From an uncultured Planctomycetaceae bacterium (lineage in GTDB: Bacteria; Planctomycetota; Planctomycetia; Planctomycetales; Planctomycetaceae), in contig CALFSX010000078.1 of assembly GCA_937916515.1 (NCBI GenBank), forward strand, positions 1 through 54,645: DNA of 54,645 nt, given 5' to 3'. The translations under genes were made by a program, and so were the position numbers. How positions within the stretch are numbered: the first letter of the stretch is position 1; the number at the start of each line of letters is the position of its first letter. Below the pieces are notes generated by a model that worked only from the letters and a program-made list of their open reading frames with translations, did no database searches and was not told the origin of the DNA. This document shows, piece by piece, positions 16,927 through 53,285 of this stretch.

Positions 16927-18030
16927 ATGGCTTTTCTAAGTGGAAAAACAGTGCTTGTCACTGGTGGATGTGGAACAGTCGGTCGCGAACTTGTTCGTCA
17001 GATTGTGTCGCAGGGGCCGTTGGAAGTTCGAGTCATCGACAGCAATGAGTCTGAAATCTTTTTCCTTGAACAGGAAATTGACGCTCAGATTGCAGAAGAA
17101 AAACTTAGCGATATCACAGCGCAGTGCCACGTGGGTGACATTCGCGACGAAGCTCGTTTGAACAGCCTGTTTGAAGGCGTGGACGTTGTCTTTCACCTGG
17201 CCGCGTTGAAACACGTAATTCTGTGCGAACGGTCTCCGTTTGATGCGACTCAGACGAACATCATTGGTGTCAAGAATGTTATTCAGGCGGCGTTGAACAA
17301 CAACGTAGAGCGAGTGATCTTCACCAGTTCTGACAAAGCCGTTGACCCCACAAACGTGCTGGGAACTTCCAAGTTGATGGGCGAACGACTCATCACCGCT
17401 GCCAACAGCATGAAGATCAACAAGCGAACGATCTTCAGTTCGACTCGTTTCGGAAACGTGCTTGGATCTCGCGGATCAGTGGCAACTGTATTCGAACGGC
17501 AGATCAAAGCTGGTGGTCCGGTAACGCTGACAGATTCCGAAATGACACGGTTCGTTATGACTCTGAAAGATGCATGCCGACTGGTGCTGCAGGCTTCAGA
17601 GATTGCTCGCGGTGGCGAAGTCTTTGTGACGAAGATGCCCATTATGCGAATCGAAGATCTGGCCAAGGTCATGATCTATCGACTTGCTCCGCAGTATGGA
17701 CACGCTCCGAGCGACATTGAACTCACAACGATTGGTTCCAAGGCGGGTGAGAAGTTCTACGAAGAACTAATGAGCGATGAAGAAACTCGCCGCACCTGGG
17801 AATTGCCGGACATGTTTGCCGTATTGCCGGCATTCCGCAGCGTGTACCAGGAAATCGAATATGACTATCCGGTTGTCTTGCGACGCCAGGTGACTGAGCC
17901 TTATGTGAGCTCAACAGGCGACATGATGTCGTTTCCGGAAATTGAAGACTTGTTGGAACTGTGTGGAATTCTGGAACCTGTGGAAGCGGACGAAGCAATC
18001 GTGCGTCCGTTCATTAAGCGTGCGGCCTAA
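16927..18030 (+). CDS. CapD/FlaA1-type UDP-sugar 4,6-dehydratase
   Basis: A 367-residue soluble polysaccharide biosynthesis protein of the short FlaA1/PseB/CapE type. The NAD(P)-binding motif is KTVLVTGGCGTVGREL. FHLAALKHV follows, then the characteristic FTSSDKAVDPTNVLGTSKLM, where the catalytic Lys is kept and the usual Tyr is replaced as in this family, then TRFGNVLGSRGSV. It probably converts UDP-GlcNAc or a related donor to a 4-keto-6-deoxy sugar. The ATG at 16927 is preferred over a TTG at 16900. Its stop codon (TAA, 18028-18030) lies within the first bases of an R1 repeat copy, so the repeat begins inside the reading frame. Confidence 0.9.
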   Translation: MAFLSGKTVLVTGGCGTVGRELVRQIVSQGPLEVRVIDSNESEIFFLEQEIDAQIAEEKLSDITAQCHVGDIRDEARLNSLFEGVDVVFHLAALKHVILCERSPFDATQTNIIGVKNVIQAALNNNVERVIFTSSDKAVDPTNVLGTSKLMGERLITAANSMKINKRTIFSSTRFGNVLGSRGSVATVFERQIKAGGPVTLTDSEMTRFVMTLKDACRLVLQASEIARGGEVFVTKMPIMRIEDLAKVMIYRLAPQYGHAPSDIELTTIGSKAGEKFYEELMSDEETRRTWELPDMFAVLPAFRSVYQEIEYDYPVVLRRQVTEPYVSSTGDMMSFPEIEDLLELCGILEPVEADEAIVRPFIKRAA

Positions 18031-18133
18031 CAAGTGCTTCGCCCTTGACCCAGTGGCGTGGAATGCGAAAAAGTGTGGGGTGTTCGAAGCGCCGAGCCGC
18101 GACGTTGTCGCTACGAAAAAAGATGTGTGCACT
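18027..18133 (-). repeat. R1 dispersed repeat, copy 2
   Basis: The element starts at CTAACAAG, which contains the TAA stop of the dehydratase gene. It then has the GTGCTTCGCCCTTG hairpin, CCAGTGGCGTGG, GCGCCGAGCCGCGACG and TTGTCGCTACG. It continues into an outer GTGTGCAC block also seen as GTGCACGCATC in copy 4. Confidence 0.88.
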
Positions 18134-18214
18134 TTATGAGCATCATTTTAAATAAGGCTCTAACGCTTAATGCGCACAGGAAGTTCATGAATTTGAGTTT
18201 GCAGGGATGGCGAT

Positions 18215-19129
18215 ATGAGTTGGTCACCGAGTTTCATTGGCATTGGAGCAGAGAAGAGCGCCACAACGTGGGCGTGGACCATTCTGAACGAACATCCGTC
18301 CGTGCGAATGAGTCAGCCCAAGGAATTGAACTTCTTCAACCTTGATGAAAACTTCGGGCGGGGTGAATCCTGGTATCGCCAGCATTTCGCCACCGACGCA
18401 AAGTGCAGCGGAGAGATATCGCCGCTGTACATGGATGATCCACGTGTGGCGGAGCGTATTCGCAGCGTTTATCCGGATTCGAAAATCCTGGTGATGCTGC
18501 GAAATCCGTTTGATAGAGCGATGTCGCATCTGTTTCATGATGCTTCCGTACATTATGGCAAGGTAGCAACCGTTGTACCCGAACAGTTGCAGGCACTTGT
18601 TGACAAAGATGACAAGTACATTCGTCGCAGTCGATATCATGCAGCTTTGGCTCCGTTTTTTGATGTATTCCCAGCGAATCAAATTGGAGTGTTTTACTTC
18701 GACGAAGTGAAAAGTGATGGGCTGAATCTTTCCAGGCGGCTTTATGAATTTGCTGGCGTTGATTCGAACTTTGTGCCTGAACAGTTCAATAAAAAGGTCA
18801 ATGAGTCTCAGGATTTGCGGCCGGCGGCAAAGTTGGTGATGGGTGTTTCTCGTGCGATCCGAGCATTTCCGCCCACTCATGCGGGGATGCAGTGGATCTA
18901 TCGACACACTCAACTGCGAGAAAAAGTGATTCGCCTGTTGATGGTCGATCGCGGCAGAGCAGAGATTCGGTTTGACGAAGTGTTTTCCAGCGACGCAGCG
19001 GCTGAACTTGTTAACGACTTGAACCAGCTAAGCGAACTTCTGCCGTCGGATCTTCCAGCAGATTGGGCACACAGCTGTTCCCATGAGTTTTCGGCCGCAG
19101 CAAAATCCGGCGGACTGATAGCGGCGTAG
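18215..19129 (+). CDS. Sulfotransferase family protein
   Basis: A 304-residue sulfotransferase. The 5'-phosphosulfate-binding loop is FIGIGAEKSATTWAWTIL, followed by the family's KELNFFN segment. The 3'-phosphate-binding motif is LVMLRNPFDRAMSHLFH. The middle and C-terminal parts (SRYHAALAPFF, IGVFYFDEVKSDGL, FNKKVNES) agree with carbohydrate or heparan-type sulfotransferases. There is no membrane anchor, so it is cytoplasmic and presumably sulfates an intermediate before export, using PAPS. The start is an ATG at 18215 after 184 bases containing R1 copy 2. Its stop is 3 bases before the next gene, consistent with one transcript. Confidence 0.9.
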   Translation: MSWSPSFIGIGAEKSATTWAWTILNEHPSVRMSQPKELNFFNLDENFGRGESWYRQHFATDAKCSGEISPLYMDDPRVAERIRSVYPDSKILVMLRNPFDRAMSHLFHDASVHYGKVATVVPEQLQALVDKDDKYIRRSRYHAALAPFFDVFPANQIGVFYFDEVKSDGLNLSRRLYEFAGVDSNFVPEQFNKKVNESQDLRPAAKLVMGVSRAIRAFPPTHAGMQWIYRHTQLREKVIRLLMVDRGRAEIRFDEVFSSDAAAELVNDLNQLSELLPSDLPADWAHSCSHEFSAAAKSGGLIAA

Positions 19130-19132
19130 ACT

Positions 19133-20599: not shown

Positions 20600-20605
20600 T
20601 TACTT

Positions 20606-21937: not shown

Positions 21938-21989
21938 ACATCTGCATTTGAACAGCATGACGCCTTAACTGGCAGGGAAGTTTGTAAAG

Positions 21990-22922: not shown

Positions 22923-22942
22923 CAGCATCGTCAGTCGGAACT

Positions 22943-28719: not shown

Positions 28720-28836
28720 GTTAGACTTGTTATCGCCGCGAACTTGTTCATGTTGAGTCAAGTTTTCAGAGCGACGTAGTCGCGTTTCCGAGCGGCAGCT
28801 CGAATGGTCTGAGGCACCGCCTCGTTAGAGTCTAAC
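28720..28836 (+). repeat. R2 multi-hairpin repeat, copy C
   Basis: The core is at 28735-28830. The four stems seen in copies A and B are kept although loops and some stem bases changed: the loop of the first stem differs (TTCATGTTGAGT), the third stem's loop is GCA instead of GTA, and TGAGGC now faces GCCTCG with a U-G pair. It is enclosed by an 8-bp inverted pair GTTAGACT (28720-28727) and AGTCTAAC (28829-28836). It lies between convergent genes and is followed after 10 bases by R1 copy 3. Confidence 0.88.
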
Positions 28837-28845: not shown

Positions 28846-28950
28846 TGCGCACATGATTTTCATAGCGACAACGGAGCGGCTCGGCGATTAACGCGTCCTA
28901 CGTCTTGCCGCCTACCACGCCACTGGGGCAAGGGCGAAGCCCTTGTTAGG
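28846..28950 (+). repeat. R1 dispersed repeat, copy 3
   Basis: A full copy with TAGCGACAACGGAG, CGGCTCGGCG, CACGCCACTGGGGCAAGG and the AAGGGCGAAGCCCTT hairpin, ending GTTAGG. Its last bases contain the TAA stop of the minus-strand DUF1501 gene (28946-28948), in the same relation as copy 2 to the dehydratase gene. Confidence 0.9.
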
Positions 28951-30229
28951 TTCGCAGCAGCCCTGGAATTACTGAACCGCCGTCGACGATTTTCATTGGT
29001 CGCCCCAGTGGGCTCAGATTTTCGTGGTTGGCGTTAACGCCCATGGACTTACAAACTGTTTGAAACAGGTCCTGCACGGTTACTGGATTTTCGTTGATGG
29101 CGGAGCCGTCTGCGGTTGAAGAACCATAAACTTGTCCGCCTACGATTCCTCCACCGGCCATAGCCATGCTGAAGACTCGTGGATAGTGATCTCGCCCAGT
29201 GCGTGCATTAATTTTAGGAGTGCGGCCGAATTCGCCCATCCAGACAACCAACGTGTCATCCAACATGCCGCGATCTTTAAGATCTGTGATTAGCGCTGCT
29301 GTCGCCGGATCGACCTCGGCAGCATTGCTGGCAGATCGCTCAAAGTTATCCTGATGCGTGTCCCAGGTGCTGGATCGCACTTCGACAAACGTGACACCCT
29401 GTTCAACCAATCGACGCGCCAACAGACACCCGCGTCCGAAATTGCTGTCGCCATAGCTGTCGCGAACCTTTTGGGGTTCTTCAGACGTGTCGAACGTGGA
29501 AACGGAAGGGCTCAGCACAAGTCGGCTGGATTTTTGGTACAGCGATTGATGAGTGGCCACCAATTGGTCAGCACCTGCGGCCGCGTATTCGGATTCCAGC
29601 TTGCCGAGCAATCCCATGCGTCGGTCAAAGCGTTGCTGCTGAACGGGAATTGCGACATTGGACGGAATCTGACCTGGATTGTTGACCACAAAAGGTTCGT
29701 AATCCATTCCCAGAAAACCCGCGCCCTGAGTGTTGCCGATAGAAACAAACGATGGCAGTTCGCTTTCGATGTTGCCAATCTGCTGTACGATTCCTGATGC
29801 CAGTGATGGATGTTTCACGCTGCCGGATGGCACGTATCCGGTGTGCATTTGATAGGTGGCTCTGGGATGACTGCCTTCCTTGTTTGTCATGGACCGAATT
29901 AAAGCGACATCATTCATGATGCGAGCAACGTTGGGGAAGTTGTCGGCAATCTGAATTCCGCTGGCGCTGGTTTGAATGGCTTCTGTTGGTCCGCCGTTTT
30001 CGATGCCTGGTTTCGGATCGAACGTTTCGAACTGACTGGGGCCACCCTGCATCCACAGCAGGATCATCGCTTTGCCACGCTTTCGCAGGTTTTCCGCTTC
30101 CACGGCCATGAGATCGCGGAACCCCAGGCCGCATGAAGCAATCGCTCCTGCAGAAACGGTTTGCAAAAAACGTCGTCGAGTCGCGGTGCGTCTGGAAAGA
30201 TGCACTTCATCAAAAATATGGTTTGCCAT
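28946..30229 (-). CDS. DUF1501 family exported protein
   Basis: A 427-residue DUF1501 protein, a family related to the alkaline phosphatase/sulfatase fold and abundant in planctomycetes. The N-terminus has a twin-arginine-like signal (SRRTATRRRFLQTVSAGA), so it is probably exported folded. Family motifs include ILLWMQGGPSQFETFDPKPG, VFSMAMAGGGIVGGQVYG and ENPVTVQDLFQTVCKSM. The ATG at 30229 is chosen because 75 earlier residues in the longer frame are not family-like and are partly encoded by the palindrome at 30324-30460. Such genes are normally paired with a DUF1549/DUF1553 gene, here 30485-32263. Function is undefined. Confidence 0.92.
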   Translation of the reverse strand: MANHIFDEVHLSRRTATRRRFLQTVSAGAIASCGLGFRDLMAVEAENLRKRGKAMILLWMQGGPSQFETFDPKPGIENGGPTEAIQTSASGIQIADNFPNVARIMNDVALIRSMTNKEGSHPRATYQMHTGYVPSGSVKHPSLASGIVQQIGNIESELPSFVSIGNTQGAGFLGMDYEPFVVNNPGQIPSNVAIPVQQQRFDRRMGLLGKLESEYAAAGADQLVATHQSLYQKSSRLVLSPSVSTFDTSEEPQKVRDSYGDSNFGRGCLLARRLVEQGVTFVEVRSSTWDTHQDNFERSASNAAEVDPATAALITDLKDRGMLDDTLVVWMGEFGRTPKINARTGRDHYPRVFSMAMAGGGIVGGQVYGSSTADGSAINENPVTVQDLFQTVCKSMGVNANHENLSPLGRPMKIVDGGSVIPGLLRT

Positions 30230-30323
30230 GATTTCTGTCCCGAACTTTTCCGAACTGGTTTGCGACCGTGTATCGATTCTGAACCTGACCTTTGCAGGCT
30301 TGCCAGTGATGACAATCCTGATT

Positions 30324-30460
30324 GTAATAAGCGAGTCCGCAATGCGGGTGGGTTGGGGTTGAGCAGGTCGTACAACCGAAGCCTGCAAGAAAAACGGAAG
30401 TCCGATTCCGCTCAACCCCGACCCGCCCGCATTGCTGCCTGGCGTGAGTCGCATTATTAC
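30324..30460. repeat. MITE-like palindrome between paired genes
   Basis: The main arms 30339-30364 and 30410-30435 match at 24 of 26 positions as inverted copies (GCAATGCGGG then GGGTTGAGC). The outer ends GTAATAA (30324-30330) and TTATTAC (30454-30460) also pair, extending the structure over 137 bases. The central 45 bases contain a shorter pair CGGAA/TTCCG. It lies between the DUF1549/1553 gene and the DUF1501 gene, and there is no transposase. It has the form of a non-autonomous mobile palindrome, or a folded RNA/terminator. Confidence 0.8.
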
Positions 30461-35087: not shown

Positions 35088-38000
35088 ATGCTTCTCAACA
35101 CCTGGCTGACAGCGGCAAAACGACATTTGTTCAAATCTCCAAGCGGAACACGAGCTTCGGGCCGTCGTTCGGGATTTTCTCGCCGTCGCACATCAGAATC
35201 TGAGGTTCTCGAAAGCCGAACGCTTTTGACTGCTCTGGTGATCAACAACAACAACATCGACGACTTTGTTGATGCGAATGGTCATCTGATCATCACCAAC
35301 TCAACGTTGGGAACCAACGATTCGTTGGTGATTGAGAGCATTAATCTGGCGTCCAACACTGACGCCATTTCGATCAACTTGTCCAACATTCCGCTGGAAC
35401 GTTTGGCAATTGAGACCGTGAATGTGACTGCATTCAACGGAACTGCGATCGACATTAACCTTACAAACGTCACGGGCAACCGCACGATTGCGATCGAAGA
35501 CGTGTCGATTGCCGGGACAGGTTCGGGCATTGACATTTCCCTGGACAATACAGATTCGTACGGTCTGACAGTTGAAGACAGTATCAGTCCGACGGTTTAC
35601 ATAGCGGCGATCAATGGTTCCACCATTGGTCACGGGATCATTACTGAAAACGAAATTGTTGCTCCGGCAAATCTTGAAGGGGTAAGGCTGACGGTATCTG
35701 CCGGATCAAAGGCAGACGATTTTCAGATCATAAACAACCGTCAGATTCAGGCTCTGAACAAAGATGCCGTTCAGGTCAACATCAGCGATTCCCCAACAGA
35801 CGGTTTGACGATTGCGAACAACGTGATCGGAAACGAACCGGGGGCAGATGTTTATTTTCGATCCAGCGGTGATACGTTCGTACAGCCGTTTGAGCTGCGA
35901 AACAACGGTATCGATGGCGAGCTGCTGCAAGAGTTTACCCTGGACCTGCGTCCACTGGGCCTGGTCTTTGATACAAGTCTGGATGGCCAGCCATTCACTG
36001 TGGTGAATGGATCGGCTGTCACTCAGGCTGAAACGACAGCGACGCTCAGCAGTAACAACCAGGTTCTGACTGTCGATGTGACGGGCTTTACTCCCGGTGA
36101 AACACTGTTGTTTGTAATTGACGTCGACCGAGCTCCTGCGGTACTTGGCGATCCACCAATTTCGGCACCAATTTTCGGTAATGACTTAATTGGTGCTTTG
36201 GTTCAGTTCAACTTCAGTGCCGGTAACACAGGAAATGCGCCGAAGCAGGTTGCCGGTACCATGGTTGGTGATGCTGGCATCTTCAATGCGTCTGTATTTG
36301 CCAGAGGAGCTGGTGCAGCGGCAAACGTGCATGGTGTGAGTTTGAATCTTGATAATTCGACTTTAACAAACACCGAAATTTTCAATAACACAATTACCGG
36401 TGTTGCTGGTCACGGAATTGTGTTTGATGCGAGCAACCAGAGCGACATCACTGGTTTGATCACTGAAAACGTGATCACTTCCGGCGGACAGGACGGGATT
36501 CACTTTGACCTGTCTGACAGTAACTTCGAAGGTGCAATCAACGACAATACAATCGGTGGCAATAGTGGCCACGGGGTGTTGTTTCAGCCAGTGGTTTCTC
36601 GCAGCGGTGTCGTTGAGGAAGCATTTGACGGAAATCCAGTTGTCATCACATCCACAAATCATCAGCTTCAAACTGGTGATGTGATTGTCATTCAAGGGAT
36701 GACCAATGCGAATCCATCCATTAACCATCCGGGCAACGGTATTCATACCGTTACTCGGCTAAGCAACAATACGTTCTCATTGGATGGTGTCAACGGCCTG
36801 GCAACTGGCATTAATTACAACGCTGGTGGAGCCTGGTATGTTCCAGATTTTCAGGGCGGAGTTATCGCCGGGGTTCCACAGGGACCGGCTCAGGGTTTGG
36901 TGACAATCGATCTTAAAGCTACGGAACCAGAAGGGCGAATCACCACGATCGTCAACCCTCTTGGTGGTGGCGACGTTCAACTGACTTCCGTGGCGCATGG
37001 CCTGTCGTCCGGTGATCGTGTGCGAATTACGGGAGCGACCGGGACACTGCTTGACGGCGATTTCAAAGTTACCGTGATTGACAGTAACACGTTTTCTTTG
37101 GATGGAGCAAACGCGGTCGGAACTTACAACGTGAGCGAGGGGTTGGCTCAGTGGACGAAGAACATTATTACGGGGGCGACAAACCCGCTTAACGGCGAGA
37201 TCGTCATCACATCTTTGGCGCACGGTTTAAATTCCGGCGACGAGATTCGTATTGCTCGAGTTGGTGGAAACGCTGCGGCCAACGGCACGTTCCGCGTGAC
37301 TCGCCTGACCGCAGACACATTCGCACTTCAGGGGTCCAGGGGCAGCGGAATTTACAATCCTGGCACGGGTTACTGGACGGCTATTGAGGAAGCAACCTTT
37401 ACTGGTGACAAGTTGCCTCAACAGATTTCCGGCAACGCTATCACGGGCAACGGAAAAGCTGGTATCTATGTCAATCTGGATACAGGAACCACATTCCGCG
37501 GTGACATTCTAAGTAACACCATTGTCAGCAATATTGCCAAGGGGGTTCATATTGAATCTCACAGCTATGGTGTTGGCGAAACATTGCCGCTTAGCACTAC
37601 GGATCCACTCGCGATTCCTGGGCCTCAGGATGTTAGTTTCAACGTCAACATCGGTTCAGATGTGGTGAACACGTCTGCTGTAACCGGCATTCCGCTTGAT
37701 GGAAATTTGATTGATAACAACGGCGAAGCTGGAATCGTTATCGAGGTGCTGGACCTCGCCACAGGTTCGTTCGAAATTCAGGGCAACCGTATTACTCGCA
37801 ACCTGGATGACAACGACACCACAACTGGCTGGGCTGGAGACGGTATTTACGTTTCCCTAAACAGCGATCGGTTTGCCGTCGATGCGAACTCATTGCTGGT
37901 TGAATCACTGATTGAGAACAACACGATTGGTGTTGATAATGAAGGCAACGAAGGAAACGGTTTATCCTTCAATCTGACTCAACGTACAAAGATTCAGGAT

Positions 38001-41000
38001 CTTGAAGTCGTTAAGAACTTCTTTGTTAACAATGCAGAGGACGGGTTCCACTTTGTTCGAACGGAAAACGGTTCGCTGAATGCAGTTGTCTTTGAAGATA
38101 ATGCCGTCACAAATAACGGCGGCGACGGTTTCGACTTGTACGCAGAAAACTCAGTGGACGACCGGCTGGACTTCAATATTCGCCGGAACGACATCAACTA
38201 CAATGCAGAATATGGTGTGCGTATTGACGTGCAGGCTGCCGCTCGAATCGAAGTGAATTTCGACACAAACGACGTGCTGGGTAATGGTCACACGCCTCGC
38301 AACAACGGCTTCCATCCTAACGATGCGGCTGGCAACTTCACGGGTCACGAAGGTGGAGCCAACTTTGCCGGCAACGCGGGAGCGGCTGGGGGAATTGGTG
38401 TCTTTGGCTTTGAAGAAGTTGAAATTGTCTTCAATGCAACGGACTCCCGAATCTCGGGTAACATCGGTGACGGGTTCAGCGTTGATGCGTTTGACGAACG
38501 AGACACCTTGCGAATGGCGGCTTCGTTTACTGACGTGGAATTCGTGCAGAATACGCTGACCGGTCTTAGAAGCCATGGAGCCGCATTTGCTTCAATTGTG
38601 CTCACAAGCAGCCTGTTTAATGGTAACCACGAAGATGGTCTGCGAATTGTGTCCATCGACGACAAGGACTCATTCTTTCAGACTCGAGTTGGCGGTTCAG
38701 ATATTGATGTGATGGCGATTGGCAATCAGTTTGTCGGTAACTGGCACAATGGAGCGATTTTGGGGCAGGGCGTTTCAGCCGTCTTTGGTAACGGAACGAC
38801 AACGTCTGAGTTTGCCAACATCTTCGATCGCAACGGGTTCACTGATCCGGCCGTGACAGGCGTCGCCAGGGTCAACACAGGTGGAGACGGTCTGAAGATC
38901 ACGCAGAATGTTGGTACTTATCTGCACAACCTGGGACGTCGTCGAACGATCGAAGCAGATTCGAACTTCTTCCGCAACAACGGCGGAGACGGTATCGATA
39001 TTGGGCATGACGTCTTCCTTGAAGGCGGTAACGTTGAGCACGGTTATGAAGTTGCCAGTGACGTTGACGTCAGCATCACCAATGCAATTATCAGTGGTAA
39101 CCGAGGCGACGGCATCGAATATCTGGCCGACAGCATTCTTCGCATTCCATCCATTCAGGGCGGTGGTCAGTTCATAACCAACCCGACAGACATCAGCTCA
39201 CTGCATGTTGCCGAATCACGAATTGAGAGCAACGGCGGTCGTGGCATTGATATTTTAAATCGTGTCAGCGAAGACTCACGAATTACGCTCAACAACAACG
39301 AGATTCTGACCAACACGCTTTCCGGCGTCTACGTCATGAACACGATATCACACTTCCAGACACAGTTCGGGCCGAATGATGTGCTGTTTGCCTCAATCAC
39401 GGAAAGCGGTTTGCGGACTCCCAATATTGAACTGCGAGTTCAGGAAAACAACATCCTGGATAACGGCAACCAGACCAGCACGTCCACAGTGCCGATCCCG
39501 GATTCGAATGATGCTCGTGATTCGACCGGAGTTCGAAATGCGGACTGGACGCACAATTATCGTCAGGTCACCGGCACATTAGGTGGCCTGGTGATCCGAG
39601 TTGGAACCGCAGGTTCTGTCGGTACGCTTGATTTTGCCATTCCGGAATTGGAATTGGGCGAATCAGGTATTGATGCGGAAGTCTGGAAGAACACGTTCAA
39701 CGGTAACTTCGGTGCGAGCGTGTTCCTGGACTCGTTTGTGAGCGTGATTCCTCCTCAGACGCAAGGACTCTTCGATGATGATACGAGTGGGCATCCGGCG
39801 TTTATTAGATGGGACCAGGGCTATCGAGATCCTTTAGCCAGACTCGACCTTGTGTTTCGAGAAAATACAGGGAACTCGCTGGACGTGACCAACGGGTTTG
39901 CGTTCATTGATAACGATGAAGATTATTTCAAGTCTCGACACATCAATCGCACAAATAGCCCTCCCAACAACCATGCGCATGGTGCTCCGACGTTGACACC
40001 AGGTGGGTTTTTCACCAACACTACCCGAGCCAGAAATGCGACTCGAACGCTGGGCTTCTTTGACACAGTTGGTGGCGTACCCAGCATCGCTTACCAAGGG
40101 TCAGGGTTTGACTTCAGCTTTGAAGGTCACGGCACGCCGACTTGGCGAGTTGAGTCTGACTATGACTTCAATAATTTCGGACAGACCAGCACAGTGCAGG
40201 GGTTTTCAACGTTCGAAGACACAGTTGACCTACTTAACACTTCAAGTGGTGGAAATGGCGGCGTTGATCAGCGTTATTCATTCCAGTGGGACACCGGACG
40301 CAATACGTCCAACTTTACCGGTTTGACTCCTTACTCTCTGGTTCGCGGTGACATCTTCAACGTTGGTGTCAATCAGGATCCGATTCAGGCGGATGGACTT
40401 GAAGAAAACGACAGCTTCCTTGGGGCAACCGATCTTGGCGTTGTTCAGGGCGCGGGCTTCAGTGTTAACGCATTGACCACAAGTTCGTCTCAACCCGGAA
40501 TTTTGACGATCGAACGCAAGGGCGATCGTGACTATTATAAGTTCACGACATCGCAGTCGTTTGCTTCAGGTGCTGCTCAACTGCTGAATATCAACCTGGG
40601 CGTACTTGATACAGGTGGCGATTCGGTTCGATTCATGATCTATGAAGTCGTTCCTCAGTCCGATACGGAAGAAGTTCCACTTGTCGCATTGAACGGAATT
40701 CCTCAGTACACGACCGTCAGCCCTGGTGCCAGTTCGTTCATTCAGGTTGCTGCCAAGCAGGCAACGACCTATATCATCGAGGTATTGAGCACGGAAAGTT
40801 CCAACCTGACGGCCAGCACAGGTGTGACGGTTGGCGGCAAGTCGTTCGTCTATGGAACAACCAGAAGTTACTCTTTGTCGATTGATGCTCCTGCCGGAAC
40901 GAACCCGGTTCTTGCCAGCAGCGTGATAGAACCACCGCCGATTATTGTGACGGCCACAAGTCCCGGTCAGACTGCGGCCGCGTCCATTCTGGATCAGGAT

Positions 41001-44000
41001 CCGTTTGTCGAAAGCATTTCGGACGTTGTGCCCAGCACAATCAGCACGTCTCTAAACACTCTCACGGTTACGTTCAGTGAAGATGTGACTCAGGTTGATC
41101 GCACAGACTTCAAACTAACCCGCAATGGTACCGTTTTGGATCTGAGTGGGATCATCATCAGCCCAGTCGACTTCCAGACATTCGAAATCACCAATCTTGC
41201 TCCGCTGACTGGTGAAGCGGGCAACTATGTGTTTTCGATCAACTATGCCACATCCAATATTGTGGATAGTGACTTCGCTACGTTGAAGCCGGGTGGCGAT
41301 GACTCGCAGGCGTGGACTGTCAACAACACAGTCACGTCGACATTGGATACAGTTGACAATCTACCGGGCGACATGCTTGCGGCTGATGCTGCAGGTAATC
41401 GCACGTTGAGAGCTGCTGTGATGGAAGCCAACGCGAACTTTGGTCCTGATGTGATTCAGCTGCAGGCCGGTTTGTACACATTCTCCCTGGCAGGGCGGTT
41501 TGAAGACGATGCAAAAACGGGTGACCTTGACATTCGCGAGAAGCTGACAATTCGAGGTATGGGTGCGACGGCACTGGATACCGTGATTGATGCCAGCCAG
41601 TTAGACCGCGTGTTCCATGTTTATCCGGGCGTTGAGCTGATTCTGGAGAACCTGACTGTTCGAGGCGGTGAAGCCTTCGATGGAGCAGGAATTCTTATTG
41701 AAGGAACGTCAACTTCGGGTGGAGTATCTGCGTCTGCGGTTGGTTCCGTCACCCTGACTAACGTAAACATCATCAACAACGAAGCCTACAATCAGGGCGG
41801 TGGTATCTATAACGTCGGAAACGTCGTTTCCACTCGCTCTTCGATTTCGATGAATACCGCCGGATCTCGCGGAGGCGGCGTTTTCAATCATGGCAGCGTT
41901 TCGTTGGTGAATTCAACGGTTTCTTCCAACTTCGCCGTGTCTCGCGGTGGCGGTATTTACAACGAATTGTTGTCGACTGCAGTCAACACCACCATCTCTC
42001 CTGCACAGGGGGCTGGTTCGGTCTATGCATTGAATTCAACAATTGCGTTCAACTCAGCCAATGCAGAAGGTGGCGGTTTGTATCAGGAAACCAGCGGCTC
42101 GTTCCGCATCGGTAACACGATTGTCGATCGCAATACAGCGCCCGTGTTTCCTGACCTTGCTCGCGGCATCACTTCGCTGGGCTACAACTTCATTGGCAAA
42201 CTGACGGTCGCGCCTGCGACCGCGTTTCTGGCATCCACCGACGTGGCTGCCGATTTCACAGATGGCGTTACAGATGCTGGCTTAAATGCAATTGCGATTG
42301 GTACAAACGGTACGTGGGCTCACTCGCTTGCGGCAGACAGTTTTGCCATCGACGCCGGAAGCACTTCGCTATACGCGTCTGAACGTGGTATCACGACAGC
42401 GGCTGTATTGACATCGACCGACCAGGTGGGATCACCTCGACTTGTCGAAGGTAACCAGGATGGCGTGTTCAGTATTGATATCGGAGCGACAGAGTTCTTC
42501 GTGAGTCAGCCAGTGGCCATTATTCTGGCCACGCCGAATCCAGCTGGTGTCGGTGAATTCGTTAACTTTGATGCTTCCAACTCCACGCACACTCTGGAAC
42601 CCGGAACAGGTCGTATCGTTACTTACGAATGGGACTTCGACTACGACGGAATCACGTTTAATGTGGAGCAAACCGGAATCACAACCACTCACGCATATCC
42701 AACACTGGGTTCGCGTACAGTTGGATTGCGAGTGACAGACAATACGGGTGCGACAGATATTCAGACGATTGTGATTTCCGTCAACGTTCCATCGCCACCA
42801 ACAATCATTGCTCCATTTTCCGGAGGCACAAGTGATCTGACACCGACAATCAAGTGGGTTGCCGGAACCGGAACGTTCTCTTTGGAAGTCAGGAATTCCA
42901 GCGGGGTGGTTGTTGATTCAGCCAGCGGGCTGACAACCACAAGTTACACAACCGTCAGTCTGGCACCGGGGATCTATACGGTTACTGTCACCGCATCCAA
43001 CGCCAGTGGGACAGCAACCAGCGATGTCTATCAGTTCGAAGTCATTCGCATCAGCCTGACGAATCCGCTGAACTTTGATGTCGAATTCGACACGACACCA
43101 GCGTTCACGTTTTCAGCAATTCCTGACGCAGCTCGTTATGAAATCTATGTCTCCCAGCTGGATTCAACGGACCGCAGAAAAACTGTTGGCATCGTCATTA
43201 ACGACAAGTTTATTGATGCTGGTCAGGCGTTGATTCCAGGCACTGGCCTTGCTGATTACGAGTCATCAACGAAGCTGGGCGAAGGCTATTACCGTGTCTG
43301 GGTTCGGGCGTTCGATGCCAGTGGCAACGCAGGAGACTGGAGCATTGGCAATCAGTTTACAGTTGTGAAACCGGCCATCACAGGACCTGCGTTCGGTACT
43401 CGCGTAACCATCGACAGTACTCCAACGATTACCTGGACCGACGTTGGGGCTCCGACCTATGAATTGTGGTTGTCTCAAGTCAGCGGTACAGATGTCAACG
43501 GCGTCGCAATCACGGGCACGCGATTGGTGACCAACGTTTTTGTTAACTCGACTGAGTACACTTTGCCTACAGCAATCGGCAATGGGTTGTTTCGAGTGTG
43601 GGTGCGTGCTGTTGCCAACGATGGTGAAGCCGGACTTTGGAGTGCGGCGTACGACTTTACAAAAGACCTACGCAGTGGACCAACTTTGATCTCGCCAATC
43701 GGCGGAGCCAACACAACAGACCGGACTCCGATCTTCAATTGGCAGGCGTTTGATGGAGCTGATCACTATGAAATTTGGGTAAACAACAGCACTCTGCAGA
43801 TTCCACGGTTTATCTACAGCGATAACGTCGCTCATGTTGTTGGTGCGGCATCGATCTACTACACCGACCCTACGATTGTTTTGAAAAACGCAACGTATCG
43901 CTGGTGGGTGCGAGCCTTCAATGAAGATGGTCAGGCTGGGGCCTGGAGCAGCAGTGAGACCTTCTTTGTGCCAATTCCAGTGATGACATCGCCAATCGCC

Positions 44001-45005
44001 ACCGGAAATGGAGTGAACGTCACCAATACGCCAGTCTTCACCTGGACGGGCGTGCCAGAATATGTTCGCTATGAACTGTGGGTGAATAATGCAACCACTG
44101 GCGTCTCCAAAGTTATCTATGAGCCAAACCTGACAGCAACCACGTACACGCCAACTTTGCCACTGCAAAACGGCAACTTCCGAGCATGGGTGCGGGGATT
44201 TGACGCATCTGGCAACGCTTCTCAGTGGAGTCAGGTGACGGACTTCTCAGTCAATGCTACGGTTGGCAATGCTCCACTGGCAATTGATACGATTGCGGGT
44301 ACTGATAATTCACCGACCTTTATCTGGTCGCCGATTTCGTCAGCAGTAACCTACGAAATCCTGGTGAAGAATTTGCGGGTTACAGGTCAGCCAGTTGTCT
44401 TGAACGAGACCGTTTCAGGGGTGCTTGATCCATTCACGGGTAATCTGGAGTACTCAACGACAACCAATCTGCCATCGGGCGCGTTCCGTTGGTGGATTCG
44501 TGGTCTTAGTACAGATGGGACGCCTGGCCCATGGAGCCAGCCGCTGGACTTCTTTGTCGTGTCAAACGACATTGAGTCTGATTCACTAAACGTTGAAGCG
44601 ATCACCATGCTGACATCGCTGCAACCAGCAGTAGAATGGTCAGACGATCTGTACAGCATCACCGTTCATCCAGCTGCTGTTGTGGCCGCGATGAAGACGG
44701 TGGAGCAGGCTGAGGTCAAAACTGTGGTGGCTGAGGTTGAGAACGATTCAGAATCCGTAGATGTCGATTCCGTAATGGAAGAACTTGCCACTGCTGATTG
44801 GTGGTCGGCGGATGAATCTGCGGAAGCTGTTTCTGCACTGGAATTCGTTGCCAAAAACCTGGTCACAGCGGAGACCGCACTTCCCGCCTCGAATTCTGAT
44901 GAAGTCGACGCTGCTGAAGAAATTCACAGTGCCGCCATGATTGGGCTGGCGTTGGCGGCATTTACCGGTGCGAACAGCGTGGCTCGCAAAGAAGACGAAG
45001 AATAG
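35088..45005 (+). CDS. Giant planctomycete surface protein (3305 residues)
   Basis: A single unbroken frame. The N-terminus has an Arg-rich region and the planctomycete extracellular motif (EVLESRTLLTAL, residues about 39-50), a sorting sequence typical of giant planctomycete proteins. Then come beta-helix repeats (about 50-500), three repeats resembling E1 FCCH-type modules (about 508-581, 618-688 and 690-766), more beta-helix (770-1500), a PPC-like domain (about 1760-1940), a SwmB-like Ig domain (1975-2060), a LRAAVMEAN beta-helix block (2080-2470), a PKD domain (2470-2568; TYEWDFDYDG), six Fn3-like repeats of about 100 residues (2570-3160) and an acidic tail. Adhesion or matrix binding is likely; the ligand is unknown. 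Confidence 0.93.
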   Translation: MLLNTWLTAAKRHLFKSPSGTRASGRRSGFSRRRTSESEVLESRTLLTALVINNNNIDDFVDANGHLIITNSTLGTNDSLVIESINLASNTDAISINLSNIPLERLAIETVNVTAFNGTAIDINLTNVTGNRTIAIEDVSIAGTGSGIDISLDNTDSYGLTVEDSISPTVYIAAINGSTIGHGIITENEIVAPANLEGVRLTVSAGSKADDFQIINNRQIQALNKDAVQVNISDSPTDGLTIANNVIGNEPGADVYFRSSGDTFVQPFELRNNGIDGELLQEFTLDLRPLGLVFDTSLDGQPFTVVNGSAVTQAETTATLSSNNQVLTVDVTGFTPGETLLFVIDVDRAPAVLGDPPISAPIFGNDLIGALVQFNFSAGNTGNAPKQVAGTMVGDAGIFNASVFARGAGAAANVHGVSLNLDNSTLTNTEIFNNTITGVAGHGIVFDASNQSDITGLITENVITSGGQDGIHFDLSDSNFEGAINDNTIGGNSGHGVLFQPVVSRSGVVEEAFDGNPVVITSTNHQLQTGDVIVIQGMTNANPSINHPGNGIHTVTRLSNNTFSLDGVNGLATGINYNAGGAWYVPDFQGGVIAGVPQGPAQGLVTIDLKATEPEGRITTIVNPLGGGDVQLTSVAHGLSSGDRVRITGATGTLLDGDFKVTVIDSNTFSLDGANAVGTYNVSEGLAQWTKNIITGATNPLNGEIVITSLAHGLNSGDEIRIARVGGNAAANGTFRVTRLTADTFALQGSRGSGIYNPGTGYWTAIEEATFTGDKLPQQISGNAITGNGKAGIYVNLDTGTTFRGDILSNTIVSNIAKGVHIESHSYGVGETLPLSTTDPLAIPGPQDVSFNVNIGSDVVNTSAVTGIPLDGNLIDNNGEAGIVIEVLDLATGSFEIQGNRITRNLDDNDTTTGWAGDGIYVSLNSDRFAVDANSLLVESLIENNTIGVDNEGNEGNGLSFNLTQRTKIQDLEVVKNFFVNNAEDGFHFVRTENGSLNAVVFEDNAVTNNGGDGFDLYAENSVDDRLDFNIRRNDINYNAEYGVRIDVQAAARIEVNFDTNDVLGNGHTPRNNGFHPNDAAGNFTGHEGGANFAGNAGAAGGIGVFGFEEVEIVFNATDSRISGNIGDGFSVDAFDERDTLRMAASFTDVEFVQNTLTGLRSHGAAFASIVLTSSLFNGNHEDGLRIVSIDDKDSFFQTRVGGSDIDVMAIGNQFVGNWHNGAILGQGVSAVFGNGTTTSEFANIFDRNGFTDPAVTGVARVNTGGDGLKITQNVGTYLHNLGRRRTIEADSNFFRNNGGDGIDIGHDVFLEGGNVEHGYEVASDVDVSITNAIISGNRGDGIEYLADSILRIPSIQGGGQFITNPTDISSLHVAESRIESNGGRGIDILNRVSEDSRITLNNNEILTNTLSGVYVMNTISHFQTQFGPNDVLFASITESGLRTPNIELRVQENNILDNGNQTSTSTVPIPDSNDARDSTGVRNADWTHNYRQVTGTLGGLVIRVGTAGSVGTLDFAIPELELGESGIDAEVWKNTFNGNFGASVFLDSFVSVIPPQTQGLFDDDTSGHPAFIRWDQGYRDPLARLDLVFRENTGNSLDVTNGFAFIDNDEDYFKSRHINRTNSPPNNHAHGAPTLTPGGFFTNTTRARNATRTLGFFDTVGGVPSIAYQGSGFDFSFEGHGTPTWRVESDYDFNNFGQTSTVQGFSTFEDTVDLLNTSSGGNGGVDQRYSFQWDTGRNTSNFTGLTPYSLVRGDIFNVGVNQDPIQADGLEENDSFLGATDLGVVQGAGFSVNALTTSSSQPGILTIERKGDRDYYKFTTSQSFASGAAQLLNINLGVLDTGGDSVRFMIYEVVPQSDTEEVPLVALNGIPQYTTVSPGASSFIQVAAKQATTYIIEVLSTESSNLTASTGVTVGGKSFVYGTTRSYSLSIDAPAGTNPVLASSVIEPPPIIVTATSPGQTAAASILDQDPFVESISDVVPSTISTSLNTLTVTFSEDVTQVDRTDFKLTRNGTVLDLSGIIISPVDFQTFEITNLAPLTGEAGNYVFSINYATSNIVDSDFATLKPGGDDSQAWTVNNTVTSTLDTVDNLPGDMLAADAAGNRTLRAAVMEANANFGPDVIQLQAGLYTFSLAGRFEDDAKTGDLDIREKLTIRGMGATALDTVIDASQLDRVFHVYPGVELILENLTVRGGEAFDGAGILIEGTSTSGGVSASAVGSVTLTNVNIINNEAYNQGGGIYNVGNVVSTRSSISMNTAGSRGGGVFNHGSVSLVNSTVSSNFAVSRGGGIYNELLSTAVNTTISPAQGAGSVYALNSTIAFNSANAEGGGLYQETSGSFRIGNTIVDRNTAPVFPDLARGITSLGYNFIGKLTVAPATAFLASTDVAADFTDGVTDAGLNAIAIGTNGTWAHSLAADSFAIDAGSTSLYASERGITTAAVLTSTDQVGSPRLVEGNQDGVFSIDIGATEFFVSQPVAIILATPNPAGVGEFVNFDASNSTHTLEPGTGRIVTYEWDFDYDGITFNVEQTGITTTHAYPTLGSRTVGLRVTDNTGATDIQTIVISVNVPSPPTIIAPFSGGTSDLTPTIKWVAGTGTFSLEVRNSSGVVVDSASGLTTTSYTTVSLAPGIYTVTVTASNASGTATSDVYQFEVIRISLTNPLNFDVEFDTTPAFTFSAIPDAARYEIYVSQLDSTDRRKTVGIVINDKFIDAGQALIPGTGLADYESSTKLGEGYYRVWVRAFDASGNAGDWSIGNQFTVVKPAITGPAFGTRVTIDSTPTITWTDVGAPTYELWLSQVSGTDVNGVAITGTRLVTNVFVNSTEYTLPTAIGNGLFRVWVRAVANDGEAGLWSAAYDFTKDLRSGPTLISPIGGANTTDRTPIFNWQAFDGADHYEIWVNNSTLQIPRFIYSDNVAHVVGAASIYYTDPTIVLKNATYRWWVRAFNEDGQAGAWSSSETFFVPIPVMTSPIATGNGVNVTNTPVFTWTGVPEYVRYELWVNNATTGVSKVIYEPNLTATTYTPTLPLQNGNFRAWVRGFDASGNASQWSQVTDFSVNATVGNAPLAIDTIAGTDNSPTFIWSPISSAVTYEILVKNLRVTGQPVVLNETVSGVLDPFTGNLEYSTTTNLPSGAFRWWIRGLSTDGTPGPWSQPLDFFVVSNDIESDSLNVEAITMLTSLQPAVEWSDDLYSITVHPAAVVAAMKTVEQAEVKTVVAEVENDSESVDVDSVMEELATADWWSADESAEAVSALEFVAKNLVTAETALPASNSDEVDAAEEIHSAAMIGLALAAFTGANSVARKEDEE

Positions 45006-47502: not shown

Positions 47503-47547
47503 GCTCGGTCAACAACGACAGAGCGCTGTGGAAGAACCACGCCTGCT

Positions 47548-48684: not shown

Positions 48685-48739
48685 AGTCGTACTCGGGATG
48701 ATCGCCGCGTTCAAAGTCTTCCTCAAAATGAATCGGGCT

Positions 48740-48840
48740 GTGCACGCATCTTTTTCGTAGCGACAACGGAGCGGCTCGGCGCTTCAAACGTCCCACCGTT
48801 TCCCACATACCACGCCTCTGGCGTCAAGGGCTTCGCCCAA
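48740..48840 (+). repeat. R1 dispersed repeat, copy 4
   Basis: This copy contains GTGCACGCATC, CGTAGCGACAACGGAG, CGGCTCGGCGCTT and a CGTCAAGGGCTTCGCCC hairpin. The hairpin end differs from the others and lacks the GTTAG tail. It lies after the 3' end of the minus-strand PQQ-like gene, with the inverted repeat at 48871-48936 between them. Confidence 0.85.
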
Positions 48841-48870
48841 CGCCGTGCCACATCACCGGCGTCCGATCCG

Positions 48871-48936
48871 TCATTCCCGCGCAGGCGGGAATCCAGCCAC
48901 GGCAATGCCTTTGGGTTCCCGCCTGCGCGGGAATGA
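48871..48936. repeat. Perfect 21-bp inverted repeat element
   Basis: Arms 48871-48891 and 48916-48936 are perfect inverted copies separated by 24 bases. Each begins TCATTCCCGCGCAGGCGGGA, so each arm also folds on itself (CCCGC/GCGGG). This is the form of the CATTCCCGCG-type intergenic repeat found in many genomes. It starts 8 bases after the stop codon of the PQQ-like gene on the minus strand and could act as a terminator or be a mobile palindrome. Confidence 0.9.
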
Positions 48937-48944
48937 CATGGGTG

Positions 48945-50279: not shown

Positions 50280-50297
50280 AGCGAAATTCTGTTCTGA

Positions 50298-51050
50298 TTA
50301 TTCAAGGCCGTTTAGGAAGCTGCGAAGATCGGATTCCATGTCCTCATCATCGGGCGCAACGTTTTTGTTGGGAACGATCGCATCCGGCTTTGTTGTTTCA
50401 TCTTCGTCGAAGTTGAAATTCAACAGGTCGTTGCTGAGTGCTGACACTGTGTCGGAGCCGTTGCTATCAATGACAGGCAGTGCGCCATCGGAATGGCCGG
50501 ACAGAGTTGCTTCTTCATCGACTGCTCCAAACAGATTCGACGCACTGCAATCGGGGGTAGTATAGTCGGCCGTTGGCTCATCGCCTGACGATGATGGTCC
50601 ACCATGTTCGATGGCGAAGTTCATAGACGAGCCATCAGCTGGGGAAGCTGCTGATCCCAATCCCTTAGTGTTGTCCGAGTTGCCGGCTATGAGTTCCGCT
50701 TCGATCCGGTCGTCGCTGATGTTGACCTGCAGCATTTCGCCAGCGGACACTTCTGATTCAACTCGAGCGATGAATTTTACGGGACCTACGGAAAGCACTG
50801 CTCCATTTTCCAGCTCGTATCGCTTGCTGGATGTAAGTCGTATTCCGTTAAGGAACGTGCCGTTGCTGCTTTCCAGATCTGAAACGAAGGCTCCATCAGA
50901 TCCGATTCTTAAAAAGCAGTGGCGACGGCTGACCTGAGGTGCAGAAAGTCGGAGGTTGCAGTCGGCACCTCGCCCGATCACGATGTCGTGACGGACAGTG
51001 ACTTTCTTGATGTTGGACGGTTGGTCCTGCAGTTCCAATACGACTTTCAT
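50298..51050 (-). CDS. FHA-domain protein
   Basis: A 250-residue protein. The forkhead-associated domain (about residues 10-105) has the phosphothreonine-binding signature VIGRGADCNLRLSAPQVSRR followed by VSDLESSNGTFLNGIRL. The remainder is acidic and low in complexity, ending DDEDMESDLRSFLNG. FHA domains recruit phosphothreonine-containing partners, and planctomycetes have many Ser/Thr kinases, but no kinase is in this window. The ATG at 51050 is preferred: GGAG lies 9 bases upstream and the domain follows directly. A longer frame starts at 51239. It probably shares a transcript with the PQQ-like lipoprotein gene, 18 bases downstream. Confidence 0.87.
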   Translation of the reverse strand: MKVVLELQDQPSNIKKVTVRHDIVIGRGADCNLRLSAPQVSRRHCFLRIGSDGAFVSDLESSNGTFLNGIRLTSSKRYELENGAVLSVGPVKFIARVESEVSAGEMLQVNISDDRIEAELIAGNSDNTKGLGSAASPADGSSMNFAIEHGGPSSSGDEPTADYTTPDCSASNLFGAVDEEATLSGHSDGALPVIDSNGSDTVSALSNDLLNFNFDEDETTKPDAIVPNKNVAPDDEDMESDLRSFLNGLE

Positions 51051-51445
51051 TGATGAAATCTCCGAGGTGCCTGCAGTGCTAATGGGCCTAACCAACTGAT
51101 AATTCATGGTCGTCAGCCATGGAAAGTCTTCACGAATGCAATTTTGTGCACGACTTTCTGCCTTACAAGGTGCCAAAACCTGATTTAAGCTGCAACCTGT
51201 ATGTTTCGAAATCCAGTGTTTTACAGCGATTCTGTTCAATTTCAGGCAGGACTACCCCTATTCCTGAATCTGTCCGTCTTTGGTGACCACTGCTCCGCTG
51301 CCCGTTATTCTTACTATCGTCAGGAACTTTGCTGCGACTTCTGGCGGAATCTGCTGGAACCGCTGAAACACATGGTTCCGTTGTGGGGCGAACGTTAGAA
51401 TTCGGGGCTGATCGTGTATTTGAGGCCGTTTCGCGAAGAAGTGCC
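51051..51445. other. Intergenic region between divergent FHA and lipB-like genes
   Basis: This 395-base region should hold two divergent promoters. The frame of the lipB-like gene stays open back to a TTG at 51329, so part of it could be coding. No repeat or hairpin was seen. Confidence 0.4.
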
Positions 51446-52195
51446 GTGACTGTCGATTGGGAAGCATTTACAGACAACACTGTCGAATCAGCCGAAGTTC
51501 GGCTGTTGGGGATGGTCGATACTGCGTCTGTGCTCGCTCTGCAGAAGTTGATGGTTCACGAAGTACGCCAGCAAAATCGAGTTTGTGCGGCGGTTCTGAT
51601 TTGCGAACACCCGCTGTCGATTACGATCGGCGAAAACGCCAGCCTGCTGGATCTGCCAGCTGACCAGCGAGAGCTGGAATCGCGTTGCCTGAAAACCTAT
51701 CGCGTTAGTCGCAGCGGTGGAACGTTTTTCCATCAGCCCGGCCAGTTGTCCATCTATGTTGTTGTTTCGCTGGATGAATGTGGATTCGACGAAAACGAAC
51801 TGCGGCGGCGTCTTCAGGACGCGATCATCGAAACCTGCAAGGATTCTCAGGTTGTCGCTCATCGACGGGACGACGACCCCAATGGAGTTTGGGGGCGACA
51901 CGGATTAATTTGTGAGATCGGTATCGGCGTTGATAAAGGTGTCACAAGCTTCGGGGCTTTCCTGAATGTCGGCGGCCGAATTGACGAAGCAAAACAGTTC
52001 GGACGTGGGCTTAAGGGAGATCGTCTTTCTTCACTCAACGCCGAACGGGTGCGACCGTCCATTATGCCTCAGGTACGTTCAACGTTAATTCAGGCTTTGT
52101 GCGAACAAATTGGATACCCTGAATATCATGTTCACACAGGTCACCCTTTTTTGGCCAGAAGTCGACACAAGGTTAAAATTCAAGACGACGATTAG
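51446..52195 (+). CDS. LipB-like protein lacking catalytic residues
   Basis: A 249-residue protein with the LipB (octanoyltransferase) fold pattern: LICEHPLSITIG, RVSRSGGTFFHQPGQLSIYV and a GVWGRHGLICEIGIGVDKGV block followed by AFLNV. Aligned without gaps to E. coli LipB (from memory), the catalytic Lys is Leu, the catalytic Cys is Val and the following His is Phe, while the H-x-PGQ motif is kept. Octanoyl transfer by the known mechanism is therefore doubtful. The start is uncertain: GTG 51446 fits the family length, and a TTG at 51329 would add 39 residues. The lipA gene follows 84 bases downstream. It could be a pseudoenzyme, a ligase-like variant or an unusual octanoyltransferase. Confidence 0.8.
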   Translation: MTVDWEAFTDNTVESAEVRLLGMVDTASVLALQKLMVHEVRQQNRVCAAVLICEHPLSITIGENASLLDLPADQRELESRCLKTYRVSRSGGTFFHQPGQLSIYVVVSLDECGFDENELRRRLQDAIIETCKDSQVVAHRRDDDPNGVWGRHGLICEIGIGVDKGVTSFGAFLNVGGRIDEAKQFGRGLKGDRLSSLNAERVRPSIMPQVRSTLIQALCEQIGYPEYHVHTGHPFLARSRHKVKIQDDD

Positions 52196-52279
52196 TGCCA
52201 TTTCAATGCACTGTTCTTTGAAATCTATACACAACTTTAATTCCTCTGGGACGTGATCCCAGCGTCTTCAATCGAACTC

Positions 52280-53200
52280 ATGACAAACCTACCAATCATC
52301 GAACTTTCGACCGATCCACCCAAGCGACGTCTACCCAAGTGGTTGAAACGTCCATTGCCACAAGCGGGTATGGCTTACACAGACGACGTTATTTCCGACC
52401 TCAAACTGGAAACCGTTTGCGAAAGTGCCAAATGCCCCAACCGGTCTGAATGCTGGAGCCAGCAGACAGCAACCTTCATGATCGGCGGAAACGTCTGCAC
52501 GCGTCCCTGCGGCTTCTGTTCAGTACCGAAGGGCAAGACCACTCCTCTGGAATTGGATGAGCCTCAACGCGTGGCCGAAGCCGCCGAACGTCTGGGCCTG
52601 AAGTATGTCGTGCTGACTTCCGTCACTCGCGACGACCTGCCCGATGGCGGTGCCGAACACTGGTACGAAACCGTGCTTGCTGTTCGCAATCGAACGGGTG
52701 CCGAAGTCGAAGTGCTGACGCCCGACTTCATGGGCAACAAAGCGGCTATCAGTCGAGTCATCCAATCGCGACCGGACGTGTTCAACCACAACACAGAAAC
52801 CGTTCCGCGGTTGTATCATCGAGTTCGCCGAAACGCAGAATATCAGCGAACGCTGGATCTGCTGAAGCAGGTGAAGGACGAAGCTCCGGATATGCCCACG
52901 AAAAGCGGTCTGATGTTGGGACTGGGGGAAACGCGCGATGAGTTGATGGATGTGTGTGCCGACCTGCGAGCCGTCGGTTGCGACATTATTACTCTTGGCC
53001 AATACCTGCAGCCAACTCCAGACCATCTTCCCGTCGATCGTTTTGTTCCACCGGAAGAGTTCGACGAAATTGGCGAACTGTGCCGCAAACTGGGCTTCCG
53101 CATGGTCGCCAGCGGCCCATTCGTCCGCAGCAGCTATCACGCCGGCGAAATGACACAACACATGGATTCCGGCACCCAACCCGCCATGATGAATTCCTAG
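52280..53200 (+). CDS. lipA: Lipoyl synthase
   Basis: A 306-residue radical SAM enzyme that inserts two sulfurs into protein-bound octanoyl chains. The auxiliary cluster motif is CESAKCPNRSECW and the radical SAM CxxxCxxC motif is CTRPCGFC. Further family blocks are VLTSVTRDDLPDGGAEHW, HNTETVPRLYHRVR and KSGLMLGLGET, with RSSYHAG near the C-terminus containing the conserved Ser that binds a cluster. ATG 52280 is preferred to GTG 52253. The TAG stop (53198-53200) lies in R1 copy 5, so the last codons abut the repeat. It acts in the lipoylation pathway with LipB; here the LipB-like neighbour is atypical. Confidence 0.95.
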   Translation: MTNLPIIELSTDPPKRRLPKWLKRPLPQAGMAYTDDVISDLKLETVCESAKCPNRSECWSQQTATFMIGGNVCTRPCGFCSVPKGKTTPLELDEPQRVAEAAERLGLKYVVLTSVTRDDLPDGGAEHWYETVLAVRNRTGAEVEVLTPDFMGNKAAISRVIQSRPDVFNHNTETVPRLYHRVRRNAEYQRTLDLLKQVKDEAPDMPTKSGLMLGLGETRDELMDVCADLRAVGCDIITLGQYLQPTPDHLPVDRFVPPEEFDEIGELCRKLGFRMVASGPFVRSSYHAGEMTQHMDSGTQPAMMNS

Positions 53201-53285
53201 CAAGGGCTTAGCCCTTGCCTCGGTGGCGGGGAACGCGGGAGCAGGTGGGAAGTTACATCGCCGAGTCGCTCCGTTGTCGCTACGA
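53198..53285 (-). repeat. R1 dispersed repeat, copy 5
   Basis: The element begins at CTAGCAAGG and contains the lipA stop codon. It then has the hairpin AAGGGCTTAGCCCTT, CTCGGTGGCGGGG and ends CCGTTGTCGCTACG. It is the most divergent copy, lacking the outer GTGCAC block. Confidence 0.8.

Follow-up and report, generated by a model that had tools for sequence, protein, structure and literature searches.

We find that a short repeat, here called R1, lies exactly on stop codons, in the orientation of the gene, and does so much more often than it lies on sites nearby. The repeat is dispersed and chain-forming, and its host is an uncultured Planctomycetaceae bacterium with a genome of 8.33 Mb. R1 starts AACAAGGGC, is ~89-136 nt long and carries a hairpin of seven pairs as its head. 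It was noticed in positions 1-54,645 of contig CALFSX010000078.1 (assembly GCA_937916515.1), a stretch referred to as the window. Its repeated occurrence on the stops of unrelated genes, whose protein ends are almost unchanged, points to a mobile element that favours the last codon.

A profile search finds five R1 copies in the window. The motif CCTARCAAG occurs there three times (18026 on the plus, 28950 on the minus and 53196 on the plus strand), compared with a mean of 0.30 in shuffled sequence and none of 100 shuffles reaching three, and each time its TAR is the stop of an open reading frame (ORF): 16900-18030 (GCC TAA), 28946-30454 on the minus strand (ACC TAA) and 52253-53200 (TCC TAG). 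By profile match, sequence and ORF list, copy 2 (18027-18115, plus) gives TAA at 18028-18030 to a CapD-type polysaccharide biosynthesis gene (16900-18030, plus; Polysacc_synt_2, E 5.8e-98). By profile match and sequence, copy 3 (28862-28949, minus) gives TAA at 28948-28946 to a DUF1501 gene (28946-30454, minus; PF07394, E 1.1e-113), and copy 5 (53197-53284, plus) gives TAG at 53198-53200 to lipA, encoding lipoyl synthase (52253-53200, plus; NF004019 and TIGR00510 over cut-off). An earlier note on this DNA had claimed that one repeat, in one frame and one orientation, ends these three unrelated genes, and so it does. Its description of the other two copies also holds: copy 4 (48756-48835, minus), which lacks the head and matches the profile from model position 11, lies ~99 nt past a PQQ_2 gene, with the palindrome GTCATTCCCGCG separating the two, whereas copy 1 (9552-9639, minus; profile match and sequence) lies 5' of the gene next to it and supplies no stop.

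Placement was then tabulated relative to gene stops. Two 97-base queries yielded 528 and 591 first-look candidates, 40 and 23 of which were scored, and the R1 profile was run at E <= 0.001 over 1.22 Mb, that is the window and 60 stretches, with gene ends called by a simple codon-usage caller; the sampled contigs are those named by earlier similarity searches, and R1 densities may be high. The sample holds 109 copies. An upstream gene runs in the same direction in 54, and in 30 of these its stop falls on repeat positions 2-4 (offset 0). The remaining co-directional copies begin 1-60 nt after the stop (14/54) or farther on (9/54), and in one of the 54 the gene reaches 49 nt into the repeat. This peak at offset 0 is far from random placement and supports insertion at gene ends, one of the two explanations that the earlier note had offered. 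Altogether 30 of 759 gene ends examined bear R1. The letters at these stops are CTAAC in 19, CTAGC in three, CTGAC in two and others in six. Occupancy of CTAA depends on where the word stands: R1 occupies 20 of 79 CTAA stops; among CTAA words in the first 60 nt of 3' flank it takes up 6 of 74, among those beyond 0 of 287, and among those inside genes in sense 1 of 1048 (for these counts, as for stop-letter occupancy, converging genes, logos and hairpins, the sample contains the 5 kb C278:75001-80000 twice). In reverse orientation, TTAG at the right end of the repeat is the exact stop of 3 of 28 converging genes. At locus L132 (contig C318, ~3924-4624) eight R1 units form a head-to-tail array that repeats every ~86-90 nt. 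On the tree, stop copies of this genome are mildly clustered, with 17 changes where shuffles average 21.1 and 2 of 200 go that low.

Stop positions in orthologues without R1

Does the repeat bring the stop, or does it reach a stop that is already in place? Seven R1-stop genes were compared with 32 orthologues of at least 65% identity. The orthologue stops at the same codon in 19 of the 32 and within one codon in 27, and R1 follows the stop in none. An eighth gene had only more distant relatives, of which 20 out of 20 stop at offset 0. The R1-bearing genes tested have orthologues 68-94% identical in sister species, many in syntenic blocks; searched for R1 itself, five of seven sister species give no match and two give one or two matches.

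Individual genes display the range. A 451-aa oxidoreductase has an unchanged stop position in each of six sister species, where the stop is written TGA, TAG, TAG, TAG, TAA and TAA, and the CapD-type gene of copy 2 shares its stop codon with four of five orthologues. A 372-aa R1 gene is one codon off four of its five orthologues, and the DUF1501 gene of the window extends 1-2 codons beyond its four close ones. lipA ends MMNS-stop without a repeat in three sister species and 3, 8 and 12 codons further on in three others, the seventh match being truncated. In sister species G005 (locus L114), lipA, the gene that bears R1 in the window, ends instead in a unit that by eye resembles another repeat, D, and has its own CTAAC stop.

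Since orthologues without R1 mostly stop at the same codon or one codon away, R1 has lodged at existing stops or within a codon or two of them; these gene ends show that the stop position is older than the repeat. The earlier note had proposed that the repeat carries its own in-frame stop. As regards position this does not stand, the position being ancestral in most orthologues that lack R1; as regards letters it retains some force, because R1-bearing stops lean to TAA (22/30, compared with 238/729 in ends without R1; p 1.2e-5), as if an AA of the element rewrote them. One outcome that the earlier note had named as refuting its reading, orthologues with the same C-terminus and stop but no repeat, is thereby observed in part.

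Junctions, insertion and competing explanations

Logos were drawn from copies with the head present and a score >=60 (24 stop copies, 59 others). The left junction of the 59 non-stop copies reads pyrimidine (.88), pyrimidine (.94), T or C (.59/.37), A (.93), A (.93) and then the conserved CAAGGGC. Right ends that lack a next unit (n=53) read AGACTC, T or C (.66/.21), purine (.86), purine (.89) and mixed letters. In summary the junctions are YYY/AAC on the left and AGACTC/YRR on the right, the stroke marking the boundary. When the letters at the two ends of 60 full copies were compared by eye, they gave no support for a target duplication.

On either side of R1 the degenerate letters resemble one half of a target, and the fixed AA resembles the first bases of the element itself; we propose that R1 enters where a stretch of pyrimidines meets two purines (YYY^RR). 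A stop codon TRR after a codon ending in YY would be one such site, YYT^RR. Host T and element AA would then make TAA, so that an old stop of any kind would be remade in place and the protein spared, whereas insertions elsewhere in genes would be lost, leaving the stops to stand out. For part of the excess at stops, insertion would in addition have to favour the 3' ends of translated genes. To this explanation as a whole, a small non-autonomous mobile repeat that inserts at YYY^RR, remakes the stop and loses its harmful insertions, we give about even weight. The enrichment of TAA and CTAA fits such remaking: CTAA ends number 76/759 here compared with 26/517 in three sister species (p 0.001). 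The proposed site agrees with the context of the stops, as YY precedes the stop in 20/30 R1 ends and in 135/729 without R1 (p 2.5e-8), which is to say that R1 is found at 20/155 gene ends with YY before the stop and at 10/604 others. The second base of the last codon is a pyrimidine in 22/30 R1 genes and 281/729 without (p 2e-4); this base, which is shared with orthologues, mostly fixes the amino acid.

Relatives of R1 also occur in a second genus (genome G012), sampled as 34 copies from 13 loci plus 20 stretches chosen from 41 matches to a query taken from a gene-end copy, so that the gene-end share may be inflated. A single change on the tree divides the G012 copies from those of the first genome, which indicates a separate expansion. 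Fourteen of the 34 lie immediately behind an in-frame stop, which reads CTGA in 11, and another begins one base past a stop. In up to nine there is no stop at the junction and the gene continues in frame into the repeat as far as a TGA there, gaining a tail such as QGLRP, although two of these nine (L319, L330) are doubtful as genes. The other ten copies lie elsewhere, six with a CCCAATGG variant. Among stop-type genes with relatives at hand, stop position agrees with the relatives' in 7/10. Among tail-type genes the repeat is exactly at the native end of a DUF1501 gene and within a few codons of most relatives' ends for an epimerase, an aminotransferase and a redoxin; a DapA-like gene is within one codon of 2/5 relatives and 7-19 codons short of the other three, and an M16-like gene is ~10 codons short of its relative. 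The G012 gene-end copies are strongly clustered on the tree (3 changes; shuffle mean 8.8, 0 of 200 as low).

Several observations weigh against insertion at YYY^RR with remaking of the stop. TAA is also raised in genes of this genome that lack R1 (238/729 compared with 132/517 in sister species, p 0.007), and ends without R1 lean to CTAA (57/729 and 26/517, p 0.064), which together weaken the argument from rewriting. The third base of the last codon in orthologues of R1 genes shows no excess of pyrimidine (13/29, and 324/733 for R1-less genes). Of the stop copies, 10/30 lack YY and 6/30 are not C-stop-C. YYYRR in the 1-60 nt after stops is rarely occupied (14 copies per ~1360 sites compared with 20/155 YY-stop ends), so the motif alone is insufficient for the peak at offset 0. 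Among paralogous flanks no clean empty site was found (tandem arrays flooded one comparison, and there was one weak case), nor was an enzyme that moves R1 identified. Finally, junction stops in G012 follow host usage (11/14 CTGA; TGA in 24/32 other genes), which suits insertion after a host stop over rewriting.

Insertion after a host stop is what a second explanation holds, one that is possible but to our minds clearly short of probable. IS200/IS605 elements have their target in the left flank. If R1 did the same, the element would start at CAAGGG and insert 3' of a pre-existing CTRA; the stop would be wholly the host's, and stops would stand out as other in-gene CTAA could not be interrupted. 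The ends occupied by R1 agree in their letters (CTAA 20/78, CTAG 3/27, CTGA 2/92), CTAA is repeated in direct order at unit ends, and G012 gene-end copies follow CTGA, the common stop of that genome, in 11/14, with several non-gene copies following CTAA. A fixed target of this kind would nevertheless leave unexplained that non-stop CTAA is so much less used than CTAA stops, down to 0/287 beyond the first 60 nt of flank, and that CTAA ends exceed the sister baseline where they should be level with it; moreover the left YYY of non-stop copies in this genome is degenerate while AA is fixed. An element derived from IS200/IS605 would be expected to have a fixed host target on its left and no target duplication; the flanks of R1 show a degenerate YYY plus AA on the left and RR on the right, with no clean empty site to set beside them.

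The head YYYAAC also recalls RYYYAAC, the reverse complement of the integron core GTTRRRY, and a stop inside the attC core site has been described for integrons (PMC8876359). On that account, which we regard as very improbable, R1 would be a relative of attC, and its genes cassettes with their stop in the core site. Chained units would agree with it. The purine before YYYAAC is absent, though, and the right end repeats its motif (CTAA) in direct, not inverted, order, so that the inverted core pair RYYYAAC/GTTRRRY is not found at the two ends; the orthologues of the R1 genes tested, 68-94% identical in sister species and many of them syntenic, likewise do not suit cassettes.

An RNA function was the other explanation in the earlier note, which had suggested selection of the repeat for 3'-end processing or termination. 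A hairpin kept directly after the stop could serve termination, protection of the mRNA end or a block to re-initiation; R1 does open with such a hairpin, hairpins directly after stops have been described as ribosome termination structures (PMC7518266), and E. coli repetitive extragenic palindromes (REPs) <=15 nt from stops are described as stalling ribosomes (PMC12306157). The copies themselves make this unlikely. Pairing in the first hairpin (777/819 cells) equals the shuffle mean (776.8), the hairpin is intact in 17/24 stop copies and 45/59 others, and covariation is absent, with one double change that keeps a pair; lone units of the hairpin-bearing repeat D, moreover, have a gene stop at their head in 0 of 47 D matches in this genome. 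A ribosome termination structure kept by selection was accordingly rejected, since covariation is lacking and stop copies are no more intact than others. So was an intrinsic terminator: the consensus hairpin is followed by ACCC with no T run, and 0 terminator-like sites were found in window 17900-18300, where copy 2 alone was scanned. No Rfam match to R1 was obtained in the window or in six loci. A bias in where R1 inserts, with harmful insertions lost afterwards, explains the pattern more simply.

A bolder version of insertion at stops, which we think unlikely, would make R1 a stop-homing repeat. Insertion would be linked with the termination of translation or with DNA exposed at that point, the first bases would be shaped to reclose the host protein (AA here; in the related genus a TGA that lies in frame 18 nt deeper in the repeat), and two genera would have amplified such repeats separately.

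About 4% of the gene ends examined (30/759) carry R1 at single-codon precision; should the sample be representative, rewriting or capture has affected some hundreds of the stop codons of this genome. R1 would be an example from nature of parasitic DNA that settles where it is least harmful, it bears on the statistics of stop codons and the annotation of C-termini in genomes of this kind, and through it the choice of gene 3' ends by small bacterial repeats becomes testable by comparison of strains.

Neighbouring repeats and other features

R1 is accompanied by other repeats. Unit D begins, as R1 does, with CTAAC and a hairpin and is chained to R1 at CTAAC (window 28723-28828 and 12330-12535; loci L004, L015, L025 and L028). 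In the window, profile matches to repeat family D1 place one D unit, chained at the junction CTAAC to copy 3, at 28723-28828 (minus), and two in tandem at 12330-12535 (minus). D units were rejected as stop providers in this genome on the count of 0/47 given above. A further unit, E (CTAACTGGACAGCGCCA), follows some R1 tails. Copy 2 has a tail, or third module, at 18116-18163 (plus) that in the list of right ends finishes with GGCTC and then TAA (18161-18163).

Another element, F, is ~350 nt long with inverted ends GCCCAACGCC...GGCGTTGGGC and copies 84-95% alike. It interrupts the hairpin of R1 at several loci (L041 ~8685-9101; also L097, L089, L105, L267, L284 and L140). At copy 4 of the window, CACGGCGTTGGGC (48835-48847, minus) resembles an F end when compared by eye and is an apparent remnant of F where the head was lost. 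Between the PQQ_2 gene and this copy stands the palindrome GTCATTCCCGCGCAGGCGGGAATCCA, whose inverted partner lies 16 nt off (48870-48937). The window also contains a giant ORF of 3305 codons (35088-45005). Outside it, positions 35-80 of L132 match the Acido-Lenti-1 RNA of Rfam with 45.3 bits.

R1 beside known repeats

IS200/IS605 elements and their derivatives have hairpins near their ends, similar short sequences at their boundaries, and form chains. R1 shares all three features, with hairpins near the ends, a similar short sequence at both boundaries and chained units (for the derivatives, the RAYT paper, PMC2817692). In contrast to them, no Y1 transposase could be tied to R1, and the best Y1 gene of its own genome sits among other palindromes. 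There are six Y1_Tnp matches in this genome; near Y1 loci the R1 profile gives weak partial matches at 2/30 and the D profile none. The Y1 transposase on contig C216 was not supported as the mover of R1, as it lies among a different palindrome. A Y1 transposase gene at L294 (9598-10537) stands among many CCACCGGCTTCAGCCGGTGG palindromes, a separate palindromic family.

Among the papers listed by searches of an open-licence library, those on repeats of Planctomycetes included, none describes an element that rebuilds the stop codon into which it inserts. The nearest likeness is to GTAG REPs, which are described as dispersed, near ORF 3' ends, with termini that often provide a TAG stop to flanking ORFs, and with Planctomycetes among their hosts (PMC3733652). 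R1 is likewise dispersed and near ORF 3' ends, and its terminus supplies the stop. A GTAG REP is, however, a palindrome of 20-40 bp with GTAG at one end, whereas R1 measures ~89-136 nt and gives the stop from a YYYAAC end; and the genome-distribution section of that paper reports nearness (<20 bp) with no single-codon peak relative to orthologues (PMC3733652). R1 does not fit the description of a GTAG REP: it has at least 89 nt, its GTAG (as CTAC(G) on the other strand, seen in many copies in an alignment viewed by eye) is confined to the distal end of module B, and no palindrome follows directly. E. coli REPs, of which 446/4,072 are given as lying within 15 nt of stops, are tied to ribosome stalling (PMC12306157); R1 stands at zero in 30/54, and selection at the RNA level was not seen in its copies. 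The QMITEs of Coxiella are small mobile elements whose overlaps with functional genes are described as all at 3' ends, one giving a C-terminal extension; these overlaps span 1-50 bp, whereas R1 keeps one fixed frame and junction (PMC5896051). R1 is a small dispersed repeat of a known sort, with an unusual single-codon placement.

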